DNA of 14,123 bases from Candidatus Omnitrophota bacterium (GTDB lineage: Bacteria; Omnitrophota; JACPQZ01). Every line of letters starts with the position of its first letter. Within the stretch, counting starts at the first letter, position 1. The notes below the pieces were generated by a model. It worked only from the letters and a program-made list of their open reading frames with translations. It was not told the DNA's origin and searched no databases. The stretch is taken from contig JACPQZ010000041.1 in NCBI GenBank assembly GCA_016190205.1, forward strand, positions 1 to 14,123, written 5' to 3'. Position numbers and translations under genes: made by a program. Of the stretch, positions 3,428 through 14,123 are shown piece by piece.

Positions 3428-4973
3428 TCTCGTAGTGTTCCAGGAACGCGCGCCGGAAACTCTCTTCAAAAAGAGGGGGGTAGGGCTCATAAGAGCTGGC
3501 CATGGAGAAGGGCGCTGCGCCGCGCGGGATGAGCCAGACGTCGATCTCACAGTTTCGGATGGCCTCGTGGGTAGCTTCGGGAACGGCGAGGCCTCCGAGT
3601 TGCATGTCCATGAGGGCCGCACCGTCCACAAGATAGGGGTGACCGCGGTGGACCAGGGCGGCGCGGAAGAAGGTTAAAAAATAGTCCTGGTTTGTGCCGT
3701 AGCCCATGGCGATCTTAAGATCCAGAAGCTTCTCCATAATATTTTTCAAATCGTCGTGGACGGGTACCTGGCTCATCCGGAGGAGCCGCGGCACGCGGAT
3801 CGACTGGTGGGGTATGGCGATCGCGCAGGCCGACAGGAAAAGAGCAGCGAGGACCAGGCCGGCAAGTTTTTGAGGCAGGGCGTCCCATTTGAAGCGGGCG
3901 ATGGCGGGGGCGGCGGGGTACGCCACTAGGGGTATGAAGGGAATGAGGTGGTGGGGGCCGGACCCGGGTTTTGCCGCAAGTAAGGTAACCAGGGCGGTGG
4001 AAACGAGTAAGGACACTAGGTAACTTGGCCTGCGCCCGTCGCCGCCCGGTCCGGCTTCCTGGTTTTGGAAAAAAAGCGCCGTGAGCGGGAGCAGTATAAA
4101 GCCCGCAAATTCCGCCGTGTTGAGCAAGATGTCCGGCTTGAGCCCGTGGGCCTTCGCAATGCCAAGCCAAGCGAGGTAGTTGGGGAGCGACACCCCGGGC
4201 AGGGCGAAGGGTAAGAGCGCGATAAATCCAGCGGCCGCGGCCGCGAGCACAAGGGCTTTCCATCCCCACCGTGTCTTTACGAGGGTGAGGATGGGGAGAA
4301 AATAGAGAAGGGCGTGCGCCTTTAGGTTGACGGCGAGCCCCAGCGTAAGGGCCGCCGCCATGATCCCCAAGCCTCGTCGTTTGCCTAGTACCGTGAGGAG
4401 TCCCAAGCTCACGGAGAGCAGAATGAGGGGATCGGTACGGGCCCAAAAGCTCATCTCCTGAAAGAAAAGTAGAATGAGCGTGGAAAAGCCCAGGTAGACA
4501 AAGGCGACGGCAGCCGTGGCGCGCTTCTTTGCAATGAGAAAGATGCACGCGAGGCTTCCCGAGGCCGCGAGGACCCCGGCGAGCTTTGCGCTCGCGGCCG
4601 AAGGCCCCAAGACTTTCATGACCAGGCCATTCATGATATAAAGCATGGGGCCGTAGATAAAGCTCGTGCGCTCGGCAGCTTCCAGGGGATGATAGAGAGA
4701 CGCCTTGCCCGAGACCCAGAGCCAGGAAACGGATGAGACCATGGGCTCGATGTGATCGGTGAAGGCCTCTATGCTGACATACCAAAATGTGTAAACTAGG
4801 TACGCGAGGGTAAGCGCCGCGCCTGCGGCGGGAATGACGTGGGATGGTTTCTTGATGACTCGCCATCTCCCTTTGAAAGCCGGGACCAAGGCGAGGGGAC
4901 TTAGTAAAGCCAAGAATGCCAAAACGAGGAACAGGGGATGCGGGAAAGGATAATGGGGCCAGCGCGCGAGCAC
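3378..4973 (-). CDS. GT-C type polytopic membrane glycosyltransferase (ArnT/GT39-like)
   Basis: This 531-aa protein begins with GTG at 4971-4973. Eight or more hydrophobic segments span about residues 13-385, and a soluble C-terminal part covers roughly 390-531. The first extracytoplasmic loop carries DHIEP (73-77), matching the acidic catalytic motif of GT-C enzymes, followed by TSFIYGPMLYIMNG (103-116) and ARTDPLILL (178-186). GSGPHHLIPFIPL around 337-349 is also typical of the fold. Such enzymes move sugars from polyprenyl-phosphate donors onto lipids, glycans or proteins at the outer face of the inner membrane. The specific substrate cannot be read. No good ribosome binding site precedes the GTG. 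A -10-like TAAAAT sits 7 nt upstream, so a leaderless mRNA is possible. Its 3' end overlaps the GT2 gene tail to tail by 50 bp. Confidence 0.82.
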   Translation of the reverse strand: MLARWPHYPFPHPLFLVLAFLALLSPLALVPAFKGRWRVIKKPSHVIPAAGAALTLAYLVYTFWYVSIEAFTDHIEPMVSSVSWLWVSGKASLYHPLEAAERTSFIYGPMLYIMNGLVMKVLGPSAASAKLAGVLAASGSLACIFLIAKKRATAAVAFVYLGFSTLILLFFQEMSFWARTDPLILLSVSLGLLTVLGKRRGLGIMAAALTLGLAVNLKAHALLYFLPILTLVKTRWGWKALVLAAAAAGFIALLPFALPGVSLPNYLAWLGIAKAHGLKPDILLNTAEFAGFILLPLTALFFQNQEAGPGGDGRRPSYLVSLLVSTALVTLLAAKPGSGPHHLIPFIPLVAYPAAPAIARFKWDALPQKLAGLVLAALFLSACAIAIPHQSIRVPRLLRMSQVPVHDDLKNIMEKLLDLKIAMGYGTNQDYFLTFFRAALVHRGHPYLVDGAALMDMQLGGLAVPEATHEAIRNCEIDVWLIPRGAAPFSMASSYEPYPPLFEESFRRAFLEHYEIKGQSTFFDLWGCRGR

Positions 4974-4980
4974 GGGAACT

Positions 4981-5010
4981 ATTTTATGCTATTGGGTAGG
5001 TGGCCCGCAA
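4981..5010 (-). promoter_or_regulatory. Candidate promoter for the GT-C glycosyltransferase
   Basis: Read on the minus strand, TTGCGG (5010-5005) and TAAAAT (4986-4981) are 18 bp apart. Transcription would start about 7 nt downstream of the -10, practically at the GTG codon, giving a leaderless message. This would fit the absence of a Shine-Dalgarno site. The -35 is a half match only, so the call is tentative. Confidence 0.3.
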
Positions 5011-5020
5011 TGGGTATAAT
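4992..5020 (+). promoter_or_regulatory. Candidate sigma-70-type promoter, partly inside msrA
   Basis: TTGGGT (4992-4997), a 17-bp spacer and a perfect TATAAT (5015-5020) form the best promoter-like string in the window. Its start point near 5027 would fall after the chosen msrA ATG at 5010, so this transcript could only use a later start such as the ATG at 5103. It overlaps the divergent candidate for the GT-C gene. It may be chance, or it may drive a short cytoplasmic MsrA. Confidence 0.35.
4998..5003 (+). promoter_or_regulatory. Ribosome binding site that decides the msrA start
   Basis: AGGTGG lies 6 nt before the ATG at 5010. The frame is open upstream to an ATG at 4938, but only the 5010 start has both this site and an immediate signal peptide. 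The upstream starts would also overlap the divergent gene. Confidence 0.55.
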
Positions 5021-5636
5021 ATTCCGAATCTCGTGCCTTGCGGCGGTCATCATTCTGCAGTTTACTGCATCTAGTTACGGAGGGGAGGCCTCGTTTCAGG
5101 AGATGGAAGAAAAAGGATATAAGAAGGCTGTGTTTGCGGGGGGCTGCTTCTGGTGCATGCAGCCTCCCTTCGATAATCTCAAAGGGGTTATTTCCACCCG
5201 GGTGGGATACACGGGAGGGGCCCTCAAGAATCCGGATTACGAGGAGGTTTCGTCTGGTACTTCGGGCCATGCCGAGGCCATCGAGGTCGTCTACGACTCT
5301 CGCGTGGTCACTTACGAAAAGCTCCTGGACGTCTTCTGGCAGAACATCGATCCCACCACCTTGAACCAGCAGTTTGCCGACAGGGGCCATCAGTACCGCA
5401 CGGCTATCTTCTACCTGAATGAAGACGAAAAGCGGCTGGCCGAGGCCTCCAAGGAGAATCTGAAAAGGTTGGGTAAATACGATAAGCCTATCGTGACCGA
5501 GATCCTTCCTGCCTCGCAATTTTACAACGCCGAGGGTTATCACCAGGAGTATTACAAAAAGAATCCGGACCAGTATGAGCGCTACAAACTGGGTTCCGGA
5601 AGGGCGGGATACTTAAAGAAGATGTGGGGGAAATGA
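5010..5636 (+). CDS. msrA: Peptide methionine sulfoxide reductase MsrA, probably exported
   Basis: From the ATG at 5010 the protein has 208 aa. Residues 1 to about 25 form a Sec-type signal peptide (short N-region, hydrophobic core ISCLAAVIILQFTA), so the enzyme should act in the envelope. It reduces methionine-S-sulfoxide in damaged proteins. The catalytic motif GCFWC is at 45-49, with nucleophile Cys46. GYTGG, GHAEAIEVVYD and a late YHQEYY complete the family signature. No Cys follows residue 49, so the usual C-terminal resolving Cys is missing. Cys49, three residues after the nucleophile, is the only candidate for resolving the sulfenic acid. The gene stands alone, divergent from the GT-C gene, with repeat copy A behind it. 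An internal ATG at 5103 would yield a 177-aa core enzyme without the signal peptide. Confidence 0.93.
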   Translation: MGIIFRISCLAAVIILQFTASSYGGEASFQEMEEKGYKKAVFAGGCFWCMQPPFDNLKGVISTRVGYTGGALKNPDYEEVSSGTSGHAEAIEVVYDSRVVTYEKLLDVFWQNIDPTTLNQQFADRGHQYRTAIFYLNEDEKRLAEASKENLKRLGKYDKPIVTEILPASQFYNAEGYHQEYYKKNPDQYERYKLGSGRAGYLKKMWGK

Positions 5637-5918
5637 CGCACTTGATTGAAAACGCCCGGCCCGGCCCCTTTGGCCGCCGTCTGTTTTCCCCTGCTACGCT
5701 CTCAACAGGTCAAACGCACGGTAGAGCTTCGCAGGGGCCGCGCTCGAATCGGGCCTCAAACAGCAGCCGTTCTCTTTCCCTCGCCGTCTGCGGAGAACAC
5801 CTAAAACAGCCGAAGCGGCCTGCAGGGCCCGAACCGGGCGTTTTCCGTCAAGCTGCTTGGAACCTGGAGGGCCAGCGGGCCGATCGCAGCCGGGGGCGGC
5901 GCCCTTCGGAGCGAACCT

Positions 5919-5977
5919 CATTTTTTGCGCAGCAGGGTCCGCCGGCATGCCCCCAGGTGTGCGGTGCACAAAAAATG
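5919..5977. other. Long hairpin of repeat copy A
   Basis: CATTTTTTGCGCA at 5919-5931 faces TGCACAAAAAATG at 5965-5977, with 12 of 13 positions paired. Inside it CCGC (5939-5942) can pair with GCGG (5961-5964). The enclosed loop differs completely from copy B although both stems are kept, which points to selection for shape. Confidence 0.7.
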
Positions 5978-5985
5978 CAGAGTGA

Positions 5986-6002
5986 GCGCCTCGCAGGGGC
6001 GC
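5986..6002. other. Hairpin with compensatory changes, copy A
   Basis: GCGCC (5986-5990) pairs with GGCGC (5998-6002) across a 7-nt loop. In copy B the same stem is GGGCC with GGCCC: the second pair changes from C-G to G-C on both sides. A further T/A to A/T exchange occurs at loop positions 5991 and 5995. See the matching copy B feature. Confidence 0.65.
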
Positions 6003-6123
6003 GAACGTTTCGCGGAGAAGGGTGCCGGCCCCGGGTGCGGTATCATGGATGCTGGAGATCGGCCCGCATGGGGACAAAGGGGCCGAGCCGGGCCTTTGGC
6101 CTTTACTATGAAGGCGATCTGAC

Positions 6124-6855
6124 ATGGTTTCTGAACCGATAGTTATTGAGAATCTCACAGTGCGATACGGGAAGAGTGTCGCCCTGGACGGGCTGTCGCT
6201 CAAGGTGCGTGAGGGCGAGATCTTCGGCTTTTTGGGGCCAAATGGGGCCGGAAAGACGACCACCATCAAGGTGCTCCTGGGTCTTGTTTATGGTGAATCT
6301 GGCACGGTCAGGGTGCATGGACTTTCCCCTACTGATTGCGGTGCGAGGCGTCGGATCGGATACCTCCCGGAAGAGGCCGCGTATTACCGTTTTTTGACCC
6401 CACTCGAGATCCTGCGCTTTTACGGAGCGCTTTTCCGAATTCCCAGACGCGTCTTGAATGACCGTATCGCGGATCTTTTGCGACTGGTAGGTTTGGCTGA
6501 AGTCGCCCGCAGGCCTCTCGCTACGTTTTCGAAGGGGATGGTGCAGAAGGTGGGGCTTGCCCAGGCTCTGGTAAACGACCCCGATACGCTTATCCTGGAT
6601 GAGCCGACCTCCGGCCTGGACCCCCTGTCGCGCATGGAATTGAGAAGACTTCTGCTCGATCTAAAGAGCCGGGGAAAGACCCTGTTCGTTTCAAGCCATG
6701 AGCTTTCCGAGATTGAGCTCATCTGCGACGAGGTTGCCATTATCCGCTCCGGCCGGATGGTCAGGACCGGTCGGCTCAAGGACATCATGGGGAGCGCGTC
6801 AGGCGTAAGCCTGGAACGCTTCTTTATCGAGACTGTTTCCGGAGGGGCGTCATGA
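6124..6855 (+). CDS. ABC transporter ATP-binding protein
   Basis: The first ATG of the frame (6124) is used, with AAGG at 6111-6114 upstream; the protein has 243 aa. All nucleotide-binding motifs are present: Walker A GPNGAGKTTT at about 38-47, a Q-loop region replaced by YLPEEAAYY, the signature FSKGMVQKVG at about 138-147 (a SKGM variant of LSGGQ), Walker B LILDEP followed by TSGLDP, and the switch His in SSHELSE. The SKGM form and the size are typical of subunits that pair with ABC-2 or NosY-type permeases, and the next gene is exactly that (4-nt ATGA overlap). It energises export or membrane remodelling; the cargo is unknown. It is the first gene of a seven-gene coupled run, and its leader begins 30 bp after repeat copy A. 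Confidence 0.93.
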   Translation: MVSEPIVIENLTVRYGKSVALDGLSLKVREGEIFGFLGPNGAGKTTTIKVLLGLVYGESGTVRVHGLSPTDCGARRRIGYLPEEAAYYRFLTPLEILRFYGALFRIPRRVLNDRIADLLRLVGLAEVARRPLATFSKGMVQKVGLAQALVNDPDTLILDEPTSGLDPLSRMELRRLLLDLKSRGKTLFVSSHELSEIELICDEVAIIRSGRMVRTGRLKDIMGSASGVSLERFFIETVSGGAS

Positions 6856-12097: not shown

Positions 12098-12472
12098 ATG
12101 GGTAAAAAGAAGATCATGATCGTGGATGACGAGGTCGCGTTCACGAACCTCGTAAGGCTCAACCTTCAGGAGACCGGAAAGTTTGAGGTAAGGGTCGAAA
12201 ATAAAGGGACCCGTGCAGTCTTAACGGCCCAGCAATTTAAACCCGATTTGATCTTGTTGGATATCATCATGCCTGATATGGCCGGGTCTGATGTCGCGCG
12301 GCTCTTGCGCTCCGAGGAAGCCACCAAAATGATTCCCATCGCCTTCTTGACCGCCACGGTCATGAAGGAAGAAACGGGGAAACAGGGAAAGCATATCGGG
12401 GGTTACCCCTTTTTGGCCAAGCCCGTCAGCACGGAGGAACTCGTCGGCTTTATTGAGAAGCTTATCAAATGA
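12098..12472 (+). CDS. Single-domain response regulator (receiver only)
   Basis: The frame is open upstream, but the ATG at 12098 follows a strong purine site (AAGGGAGG region, 12082-12090) and begins a standard receiver domain; 124 aa. Key residues are Asp10-Asp11 in MIVDDE, phosphoacceptor Asp55 in LILLD, Thr85 in FLTAT and Lys108 in LAKPVS. No output domain follows, so it signals through protein contacts, as CheY- or Spo0F-like proteins do. No histidine kinase is in the window. The next gene, a GT9 glycosyltransferase, begins 7 nt after the stop and is likely cotranscribed. A small 53-bp gap with a weak TATCAT at 12065-12070 separates it from the C26 gene. Confidence 0.9.
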   Translation: MGKKKIMIVDDEVAFTNLVRLNLQETGKFEVRVENKGTRAVLTAQQFKPDLILLDIIMPDMAGSDVARLLRSEEATKMIPIAFLTATVMKEETGKQGKHIGGYPFLAKPVSTEELVGFIEKLIK

Positions 12473-12479
12473 CGGCCAG

Positions 12480-13697
12480 ATGTGGGCGTCCGTAGACCGA
12501 AGGGTCGCGTTATTTAAGTTTATCGATCACTGGCTCGGCGGCCTCCTCTGTTTTTTCCTGGCGTTTTTTCATCGTGCCACCCGCCCTTTCTACCGCACCT
12601 ATACCGCCGCAGCCTTCCGCCGTCCACCCCGAGCTATCTGGGTCATGAAGTTTTTTGGACTGGGGAGCATTGTGCTGGCGGCCCCCATGGTCCAGGGTAT
12701 AAGGGCCAAATATCCCGGTGCGAAGCTCACTTTTTTAACCTTTCAGGAAAACGTGGACCTGGCCAGGCGCCTCGATCTTGGAGATGAGATCCGCGCGATC
12801 GAGACCGCCAATCCCTTTAAGCTCGCCGCCTCCATCTTCTCCACCCTCATAGCTTTTTCCCTCCGCAAACCCGACGTTGTTGTGGACCTCGAGTTCTATT
12901 CCAAATTCGGTACCCTCATGTCGTATTTCTCCGGAGCCCCTTGGCGCTTAGGGTTTTATCTGCCCCTATTCTGGAGAAACTCGCTCGTCAATGTCCCCAT
13001 CTCTTTTAATCACAGCCGGCACATCCTGGACATGTACCGGATGGCGGGGGAGGCCTTGGGGGTTATAGAGGCTCCCGTCCGGCGCGTGGACATTCCCTTA
13101 GGGGAGGATGAGCGAAATGCAGTTCGGAGGATCCTGCACGAGCGGGCGGTGGGGGAAAGAGATATTCTTTTGGGCGTGAATGTAAATGCCAGCTTCGTCA
13201 TGGACTGCCGCAAGTGGCCCCTCGAAAACTTTGGCGCGCTCATCAACAGGCTTCTCAAGACCGCCGGGGGGATTAAAGTCATCCTGACGGGGACGAGGAA
13301 GGAGGCGGCGTACACCGCATCGTTGTTTCAGCATATCGATGAGTCATTGAGGCCCCGGGTCATCAACTTGGCCGGCGCGCTTTCGTTCGGAGAGTTCATT
13401 GCGCTTCTCAAGGAGCTTAAGCTCATGCTCACGAATGACAGCGGTCCCTTCCATCTCGCCAAGGCGCAGGGGACGCCTACGGTTTCCATCTGGGGGCCTG
13501 GAAACCCAGGTCTCTATGGCCCCTATGGAGATGAAGATAAAACGCACCGCGTGCTCTACAAACGCTGGCCGTGCAGCCCCTGCCTGTACCTCTACCGCAC
13601 CGACGCGGGCCGTTTCTGCGAAAAGACCGTCCCCTGCCTCAAAGCCATCGGCGTGGAGGAAGTTCTCGAAGCCGTCAGGGCGGGACTCGCGTCGTGA
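12480..13697 (+). CDS. GT9-family glycosyltransferase (heptosyltransferase-like)
   Basis: I take the ATG at 12480, 7 nt after the response-regulator stop (405 aa); a TTG at 12453 would overlap that gene. The N-terminal helix (about 12-31, DHWLGGLLCFFLAFF) may associate with the membrane. The GT-B fold of the ADP-heptose:LPS heptosyltransferase family is shown by KFFGLGSIVLAAPMVQGIR (57-75), the NVNAS region near 234-238, ILTG (268-271) and TNDSGPFHLAKAQGTPTVSIWGP (the hallmark TxDSGPxHLA...G, 318-340). Such enzymes add heptose or a related sugar to the LPS core in the cytoplasm. Near the C-terminus Cys365, Cys368, Cys380 and Cys386 form CX2C-X11-CX5C, a possible metal site. True heptose specificity cannot be claimed. 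No ribosome binding site is evident. Repeat copy B lies 41 bp beyond the stop. Confidence 0.87.
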   Translation: MWASVDRRVALFKFIDHWLGGLLCFFLAFFHRATRPFYRTYTAAAFRRPPRAIWVMKFFGLGSIVLAAPMVQGIRAKYPGAKLTFLTFQENVDLARRLDLGDEIRAIETANPFKLAASIFSTLIAFSLRKPDVVVDLEFYSKFGTLMSYFSGAPWRLGFYLPLFWRNSLVNVPISFNHSRHILDMYRMAGEALGVIEAPVRRVDIPLGEDERNAVRRILHERAVGERDILLGVNVNASFVMDCRKWPLENFGALINRLLKTAGGIKVILTGTRKEAAYTASLFQHIDESLRPRVINLAGALSFGEFIALLKELKLMLTNDSGPFHLAKAQGTPTVSIWGPGNPGLYGPYGDEDKTHRVLYKRWPCSPCLYLYRTDAGRFCEKTVPCLKAIGVEEVLEAVRAGLAS

Positions 13698-13827
13698 CTG
13701 TGGCTCATCTTGCTGCCGCACCTCTCATAATTAAAAAAGCCCGGCCCGGTCCCTTCGGCCCACACGCGGGCCGATCTCAAGCAGCCAGGATACAGCACCC
13801 GGGGCCGGCACCCTTCTTCGCGAAACG

Positions 13828-13850
13828 GCCGGTATACTACGTATACCGGC
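13828..13850. other. Perfect 10-bp hairpin unique to copy B
   Basis: GCCGGTATAC (13828-13837) and GTATACCGGC (13841-13850) are perfectly complementary around a 3-nt loop. Copy A lacks this hairpin. Confidence 0.85.
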
Positions 13851-13862
13851 ACTTCCTTCGCC

Positions 13863-13885
13863 CACCCGCGCTTTTCGCGCGGGTG
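13863..13885. other. Perfect 9-bp hairpin unique to copy B
   Basis: CACCCGCGC (13863-13871) and GCGCGGGTG (13877-13885) pair perfectly around TTTTC, which is GAAAA on the minus strand. The first arm abuts the preceding 10-bp hairpin region. Copy A lacks it. Confidence 0.85.
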
Positions 13886-13902
13886 CCCGGGCTCGGTCGC
13901 TC

Positions 13903-13919
13903 GGGCCCCAGCGTGGCCC
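13903..13919. other. Hairpin with compensatory changes, copy B
   Basis: On the minus strand GGGCC (13919-13915) pairs with GGCCC (13907-13903). This is the same stem as 5986-6002 in copy A, with both bases of one pair exchanged so that pairing is retained. Confidence 0.65.
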
Positions 13920-13927
13920 TCGCTCTG

Positions 13928-13985
13928 CATTTTTTGCGCACCGCATCAGTCAGGCAATCAGGCGGACCGTGCTGCGCAAAAAATG
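13928..13985. other. Long perfect hairpin of repeat copy B
   Basis: CATTTTTTGCGCA (13928-13940) and TGCGCAAAAAATG (13973-13985) are perfectly complementary over 13 bp around a 32-nt interior. That interior keeps an inner CCGC/GCGG pairing although its loop sequence has no resemblance to copy A. Confidence 0.8.
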
Positions 13986-14123
13986 AGGTTCGCTCCGAAG
14001 GGCGCCGCCCCCGGCTGCGATCGGCCCGAATGCTCATGTTAGAAATGCCCGGCTTGGACCCTGAAGGCCGCTTCGGCTGTTTTAGGTGTTCTCCGCAGAC
14101 GGCGAGGGAAAGAGAACGGCTGC

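Follow-up and report, generated by a model that had tools for sequence, protein, structure and literature searches.

What kind of sequence is the long repeat that occurs twice, in opposite orientations, in a 14,123-nucleotide stretch of DNA (hereafter the window) from Candidatus Omnitrophota bacterium? An earlier note, made from the sequence alone, described a unit of roughly 440 bp that looked like a structured noncoding RNA or a hairpin-rich mobile element, encoded no transposase, and was not recognised as any named family. On balance, we favor the reading that the repeat belongs to a family of palindromic mobile DNA elements that lie between genes and are non-autonomous. The family is real, large, uncatalogued, and palindromic, and it is probably mobile; the window copies come from the most elaborate form met here, which combines two modules, M1 and M2.

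Structure of the two window copies

The two 59-bp blocks reported as identical in copies A and B are exact by exact matching: 5876-5934 equals 14028-13970 (minus strand), and 5763-5821 equals 14123-14065 (minus strand). An inverted-repeat search recovered four collinear arm pairs between the copies (82-95%). Copy B is inverted and incomplete, as had been noted, and is cut by the contig end. The neighbors of copy A are a peptide methionine sulfoxide reductase gene (4938-5636) and an ABC transporter ATPase gene (6124-6855), and copy B lies past the end of a glycosyltransferase family 9 gene (12453-13697), all assigned with Pfam. The repeat has no coding sequence, in agreement with the statement that it encodes no transposase. 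The parts of the two copies are as follows, with the source of each assignment in parentheses.

5654-5668, plus strand: 5′ terminal inverted repeat (TIR) of copy A, GCCCGGCCCGGCCCC (copy alignment, TIR pattern inventory)
5669-5824, plus strand: M1 remnant of copy A, the 3′ arm and one variable hairpin (comparison with L002, L003, and L013)
5825-5839, plus strand: inner copy of the terminal repeat, GGGCCCGAACCGGGC, the end of M1 (alignment)
5877-6065, plus strand: module M2, foldback GGGCCGATC...GATCGGCCC, forked hairpin (single-stranded DNA fold, exact-match boundaries)
5890-6035, plus strand: M2 core, member of the widespread family (covariance model R2, 96.2 bits, E 8e-26)
5980-6007, plus strand: side hairpin GAGYGA-stem-CGCNGGGG-stem-CGARCG with a tandem G-A motif (C-G/T-A covariation)
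6079-6093, plus strand: 3′ terminal inverted repeat of copy A, GGGGCCGAGCCGGGC (copy alignment, TIR inventory)
13739-14123, minus strand: copy B, inverted and cut by the contig end (inverted-repeat search, exact matching)
13739-13753, minus strand: 3′ terminal repeat of copy B (TIR pattern inventory)
13768-14027, minus strand: module M2 of copy B with an interrupting insert (exact matching)
13828-13899, minus strand: 72-bp double-hairpin insert in M2 of copy B (copy comparison)
14062-14123, minus strand: 3′ part of M1 of copy B (exact matching)

Compared with complete copies, copy A is missing the 5′ arm of M1 and so is not a full element; the deletion joins two TTTTCCCC repeats. In the copy alignment, the repeat at 5654-5668 pairs with both 6079-6093 and 5825-5839. 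The M2 homology of two other loci (L013 and L014) stops just past the inner terminal repeat, at the end of M1. Folded as single-stranded DNA, the plus strand of copy A M2 reaches -62.8 kcal/mol (z -5.4) and the opposite strand -51.5 kcal/mol (z -3.8). The conserved pair 292/341 of the side hairpin is CG in 73 cases, UA in 14, and UG in 1. In copy B the R2 match spans 13873-14014 (61.1 bits). The 72-bp insert is found at the same place of M2 in L015, L020, L021, and L024, apparently marking a subfamily.

Modular organization of the host copies

The host assembly comprises 1.65 Mb in 76 contigs. A search with the 440-bp query returned 39 matches (best E 7e-231 to itself and 9e-136 to the next copy), far beyond chance. 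By hand grouping and a list of end patterns, the matches correspond to roughly 25-27 element loci, an inventory that is based on searches. About half of these loci lie at contig ends, and many breaks in the host assembly are due to the element.

Complete copies (L002, L003, L005, L006, and L007) are about 520-620 bp long. The full element combines two nested foldbacks, M1 (about 280-340 nt) and M2 (about 190 nt; 189 bp in copy A), in a mosaic bounded by GC-rich inverted ends, in the order 5′ end repeat GCCCGKCTYGKCCCC, M1, inner end repeat, variable linker, M2, and 3′ end repeat. The 440-bp unit is a genuine repeat but a mosaic one, and the widespread family described below includes its M2 half only. 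Two loci (L013 and L014) consist of M1 alone and another (L017) of M2 with the 5′ end, so the modules are separable.

Over 99 consensus pairs of M1 in ten copies there are 890 Watson-Crick, 4 G-U, 13 A-C, and 21 other cells; M1 of L007 carries compensatory swaps of several bases, and two hairpins within M1 have very different sequences among copies with their pairing retained. The outer ends are complementary on into the flank (nAAAnGCCC/GGGCnTTTn), and the L002 element folded as RNA gives z = -10. M1 was met in the host genome alone, with no match in about 1.57 Mb of other DNA searched. One host copy lies between two genes that we take, from recognition of their sequences, to be atpG and atpD. 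At L003, about 2000-2108 (C36:5922-6030), a complete element adjoins a reversed M2 fragment of another element, and at L026 a GCGGAGAAGGGTG-like fragment adjoins an element; together the two cases hint at nested insertion.

Distribution of the M2 core

A DNA search of 57 phylum relatives gave no match, and an exact 33-mer of M2 was absent from named genomes. A first covariance model of the M2 core, R1, matched 20 other genomes, and the matched sequences still have letters in common at unpaired places. The R1 counts were dropped because the model was too loose, its own reverse complement scoring 29-33 bits, and all counts given here use a second model, R2, built from 29 diverse cores that are homologues and include other copies of the host genome. 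R2 matches, with a best E of 7e-35, occur in 181 of 384 genomes of the phylum, spread over 131 of 283 genera, and five genomes with fuller R2 scoring hold 7-16 copies each.

The core also extends beyond the phylum. Among 13 named genomes, reached by way of other loci, the metagenome-assembled genome (MAG) of Actinomycetota bacterium Yes46-11 has eight strong R2 matches (E to 3.8e-19). Its elements are about 250-290 bp long and have ends of their own, AACTTTTGCGTT...AACGCAAAAGTT, which are also the TIR of G395; its AtpG groups with Actinomycetota at about 60%. A Slackia genome (L171) gave one weak R2 match of 36.8 bits, which may be an unrelated palindrome. Plasmids and phages had no match to the element; two viral pattern matches were due to chance (about 7 bits). 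No Rfam family, including HEARO and the group I and II introns, scored above its gathering threshold, which rules out a known RNA family and agrees with the earlier remark that no named family was recognised. The family was not found in Rfam or the open papers searched, an absence that is not proof of its being undescribed.

Fold and covariation of the M2 core

On one strand, the M2 core (about 150 nt) folds into a forked hairpin composed of a long outer stem, a 3x3 internal loop, an A/T-rich arm, and a side hairpin. The A/T-rich arm carries a conserved GCGGGCAYGGT / GA loop, and the side hairpin combines tandem G-A pairs with a CGCTGGGG loop. The earlier note had proposed a search of the same genome and relatives together with a covariance model; many copies were found, and the model recovers the core across the phylum with covarying stems. 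In 90 R2 matches, 40 of 43 pairs have compensatory change on both sides, and the covariation score is 0.735 versus 0.198 for shuffled and at most 0.171 for slid alignments; the alignment (A7) and R2 were fitted to the proposed structure, which biases the pair counts in its favor. The majority of rows have G-A or A-G at columns 46/273 and 47/272, and other rows have Watson-Crick pairs there. Among the unpaired columns that are conserved are GGGCAnGG, GA, and letters of the GCTGG loop. The arms covary and the unpaired bases are fixed, and these unpaired motifs mark one strand.

RNA or DNA

Strong covariation, conserved unpaired motifs, and tandem G-A pairs are features that a family of structured noncoding RNAs, trans-acting or cis-regulatory and present in several copies, would have. 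RNA under selection should favor G-U pairs on its own strand. In 88 rows (two of the 90 are opposite-strand palindrome artefacts and were left out of this count), there are 84 G-U and 56 A-C cells of 3718, in contrast to a 5S rRNA control from 30 genomes of the phylum, in which 167 of 1020 cells are G-U and only 3 are A-C. Orientation to genes is also close to random. Among 61 copies, with neighbors oriented from simple ORF calls, 22 have the same sense as their co-directional neighbors and 27 the opposite sense, 10 lie between divergent genes, and 1 lies between convergent genes; 29 of the 61 follow GC skew, and no overall replication-strand bias was found. Neutral orientation makes a cis-acting RNA or terminator unlikely and, with G-U barely above A-C, makes the constraint look DNA-level.

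Replication template switching can create and maintain compensated stems (PMC8794818), and covariation alone is, on that basis, no proof of RNA. Given also the persistence of copies without the core and the lack of an Rfam match, a noncoding RNA family is improbable, and the structure is apparently preserved at the DNA, not the RNA, level. Near-perfect covariation need not mean RNA; here the count of G-U versus A-C separated the readings. Of the original pair of alternatives, the mobile element gains support and the RNA does not.

Signs of mobility

The copies are dispersed, mostly intergenic, and found in either orientation. The clearest comparison is the cysS-tmk spacer within one genus. In G173 this is a short stop-to-start spacer with no element; G144 and G222 contain the element (the upstream gene differs in G222), and G255 has it in inverted orientation. 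The same ends enclose a short hairpin in G050 and different hairpins in G329, G250, and G134. In G395, truncated copies and copies without the core persist. A mobile element is supported by the dispersed, multicopy occurrence, by a spacer that is empty, by a copy that is inverted, and by copies in decay. Insertion and decay would best explain the spacer and G395 variants, the direction at any one site being what we infer from sequence comparison, and the empty site of G173 could be a loss. Much of the spread must be old, since some positions are common to related species. Terminal inverted repeats, a feature of MITEs, are present, and no consistent target-site duplication was seen in flanks read by eye.

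An element of DNA architecture, such as a site for gyrase, a nucleoid protein, or the replication fork, could be maintained by selection on its duplex or cruciform form and spread through recombination without a transposase. The intergenic position, neutral orientation, and moderate copy number of the repeat would fit such a site, as would the failure to find a transposase; however, the conserved loops are specific to a single strand, R2, at its present sensitivity, gave no match in roughly half of the phylum genomes sampled, and inverted and swapped versions occur at one site. We judge this explanation unlikely and retain the mobile element. In several genera of one family, the element lies upstream of tmk in both orientations (L107, L099, L150, L167, and L222), a possible recurrent insertion spot.

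Search for a partner enzyme

REPIN-like elements are moved by host-encoded RAYT (Y1) transposases, and the host genome has four Y1_Tnp genes. Like REPINs, the elements are palindromic and intergenic and sometimes form inverted pairs about 50-90 bp apart (PMC3116915). The distribution of the enzyme, however, does not follow that of the element. Of the 384 genomes, 303 have Y1 transposases, 143 of them together with R2 matches and 160 without; 38 genomes have R2 matches only and 43 have neither (odds ratio 1.01, p=1, without phylogenetic correction). Three near-complete genomes (G018, G058, and G064) have 7 scored copies and no Y1 match. None of the four host Y1_Tnp genes has element sequence within 1.5 kb, and no Y1 gene stands beside the element loci. 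The ends lack a GTAG tag, and the units are far longer than 20-40 bp (PMC3733652). A RAYT-driven REPIN was rejected on the flat co-occurrence and lack of adjacency, and movement of the element in this way is quite unlikely. At L070 (598-1845) a 415-aa Y1_Tnp protein has RLHLL at the place of the HUH motif and a long C-terminal extension, and at L067 Rhs-like repeat proteins (by eye) flank one Y1_Tnp gene.

Other candidates for a mover were sought around the elements. No adjacent protein family was shared beyond gene neighborhoods common to related species (cysS-tmk, tgt, and pyrG), and no mobility gene was recognised by eye in five spans between closely spaced copies. The host end-pattern inventory for an autonomous transposon with the same ends revealed close pairs only, and no transposon lies in any of the additional G395 loci read, but assemblies break at the repeat.

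Proposed mechanism and significance

The mobile element may work as a folded strand. The strand would fold when single-stranded, during replication or repair; a trans-acting recombinase or transposase would recognise its conserved loops; and the hairpin would be cut out and then reinserted, a scheme that we infer from sequence rather than from observed transposition. Template switching during replication might partly restore the match between the arms and would also let inner modules swap between copies. A recombinase acting on the folded strand is suggested by analogy with attC (PMC2727003) and REPIN/RAYT (PMC3116915). More tentatively, the elements could represent a new class of mobile DNA whose substrate is a forked, tandem-G-A single-strand fold of about 150 nt, recognised by a non-Y1 recombinase and shared by at least two bacterial phyla. 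If so, a large cross-phylum class of folded-DNA elements in uncultured bacteria has been missed by Rfam, and there is a clear search target: an enzyme recognising a forked hairpin whose loop letters are fixed. The novelty is in the forked core, the breadth, and the absence of a known mover.

Comparison with known repeats

REPs are 20-40 bp long, carry GTAG or CGTC tags, and lie mostly between unidirectional or convergent genes (PMC3116915, PMC3733652). The present elements resemble REPs and REPINs as intergenic palindromic repeats without coding sequence that fold as single strands and form inverted pairs (PMC3116915, PMC3733652). They differ in the forked core of about 150 nt, the lack of a GTAG tag and of RAYT co-occurrence, and the rarity of copies between convergent genes (1 of 61); M2 is 189 bp and the full element 520-620 bp long, and the host element ends are GAAAnGCCCG...CGGGCnTTTC. 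Family f16 has the 3′ end GACGC (reverse complement GCGTC) within a paired end, which may link it to the CGTC tag.

ERIC/RU-type sequences and bacterial MITEs are likewise non-coding, about 100-600 bp long, dispersed, and bounded by TIRs (PMC2229807, PMC2759123), whereas here no related autonomous transposon or target-site duplication was found (flanks by eye) and the conserved unpaired core is common to two phyla. Integron attC sites, which serve as a working analogy only, are read as folded single strands with structure kept over sequence (PMC2727003); the element copies inspected are solitary, without surrounding cassette arrays, and their core is larger, with a strongly conserved loop sequence. 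Bacterial stem-loop repeat families are also repeated, folding, and intergenic (PMC2267715). The survey that described them covered 40 genomes (PMC2267715), and, compared by description, the present element differs in coming from an uncultured phylum and an Actinomycetota MAG.

A second short repeat, TAAAATCGACATTCGCTGCGAAACTTGTCAGTGTCATTT, which contains its own hairpin, lies 20-50 bp before the core at L151, L152, L157, L161, and L166 in three genomes, and at L218, L220, and L275 a hairpin family with the same termini (GCGGGTGACTGCC...GGCAGGACCCGC) encloses a different core, CGCGCAACGNAAGTGAGCACGG.
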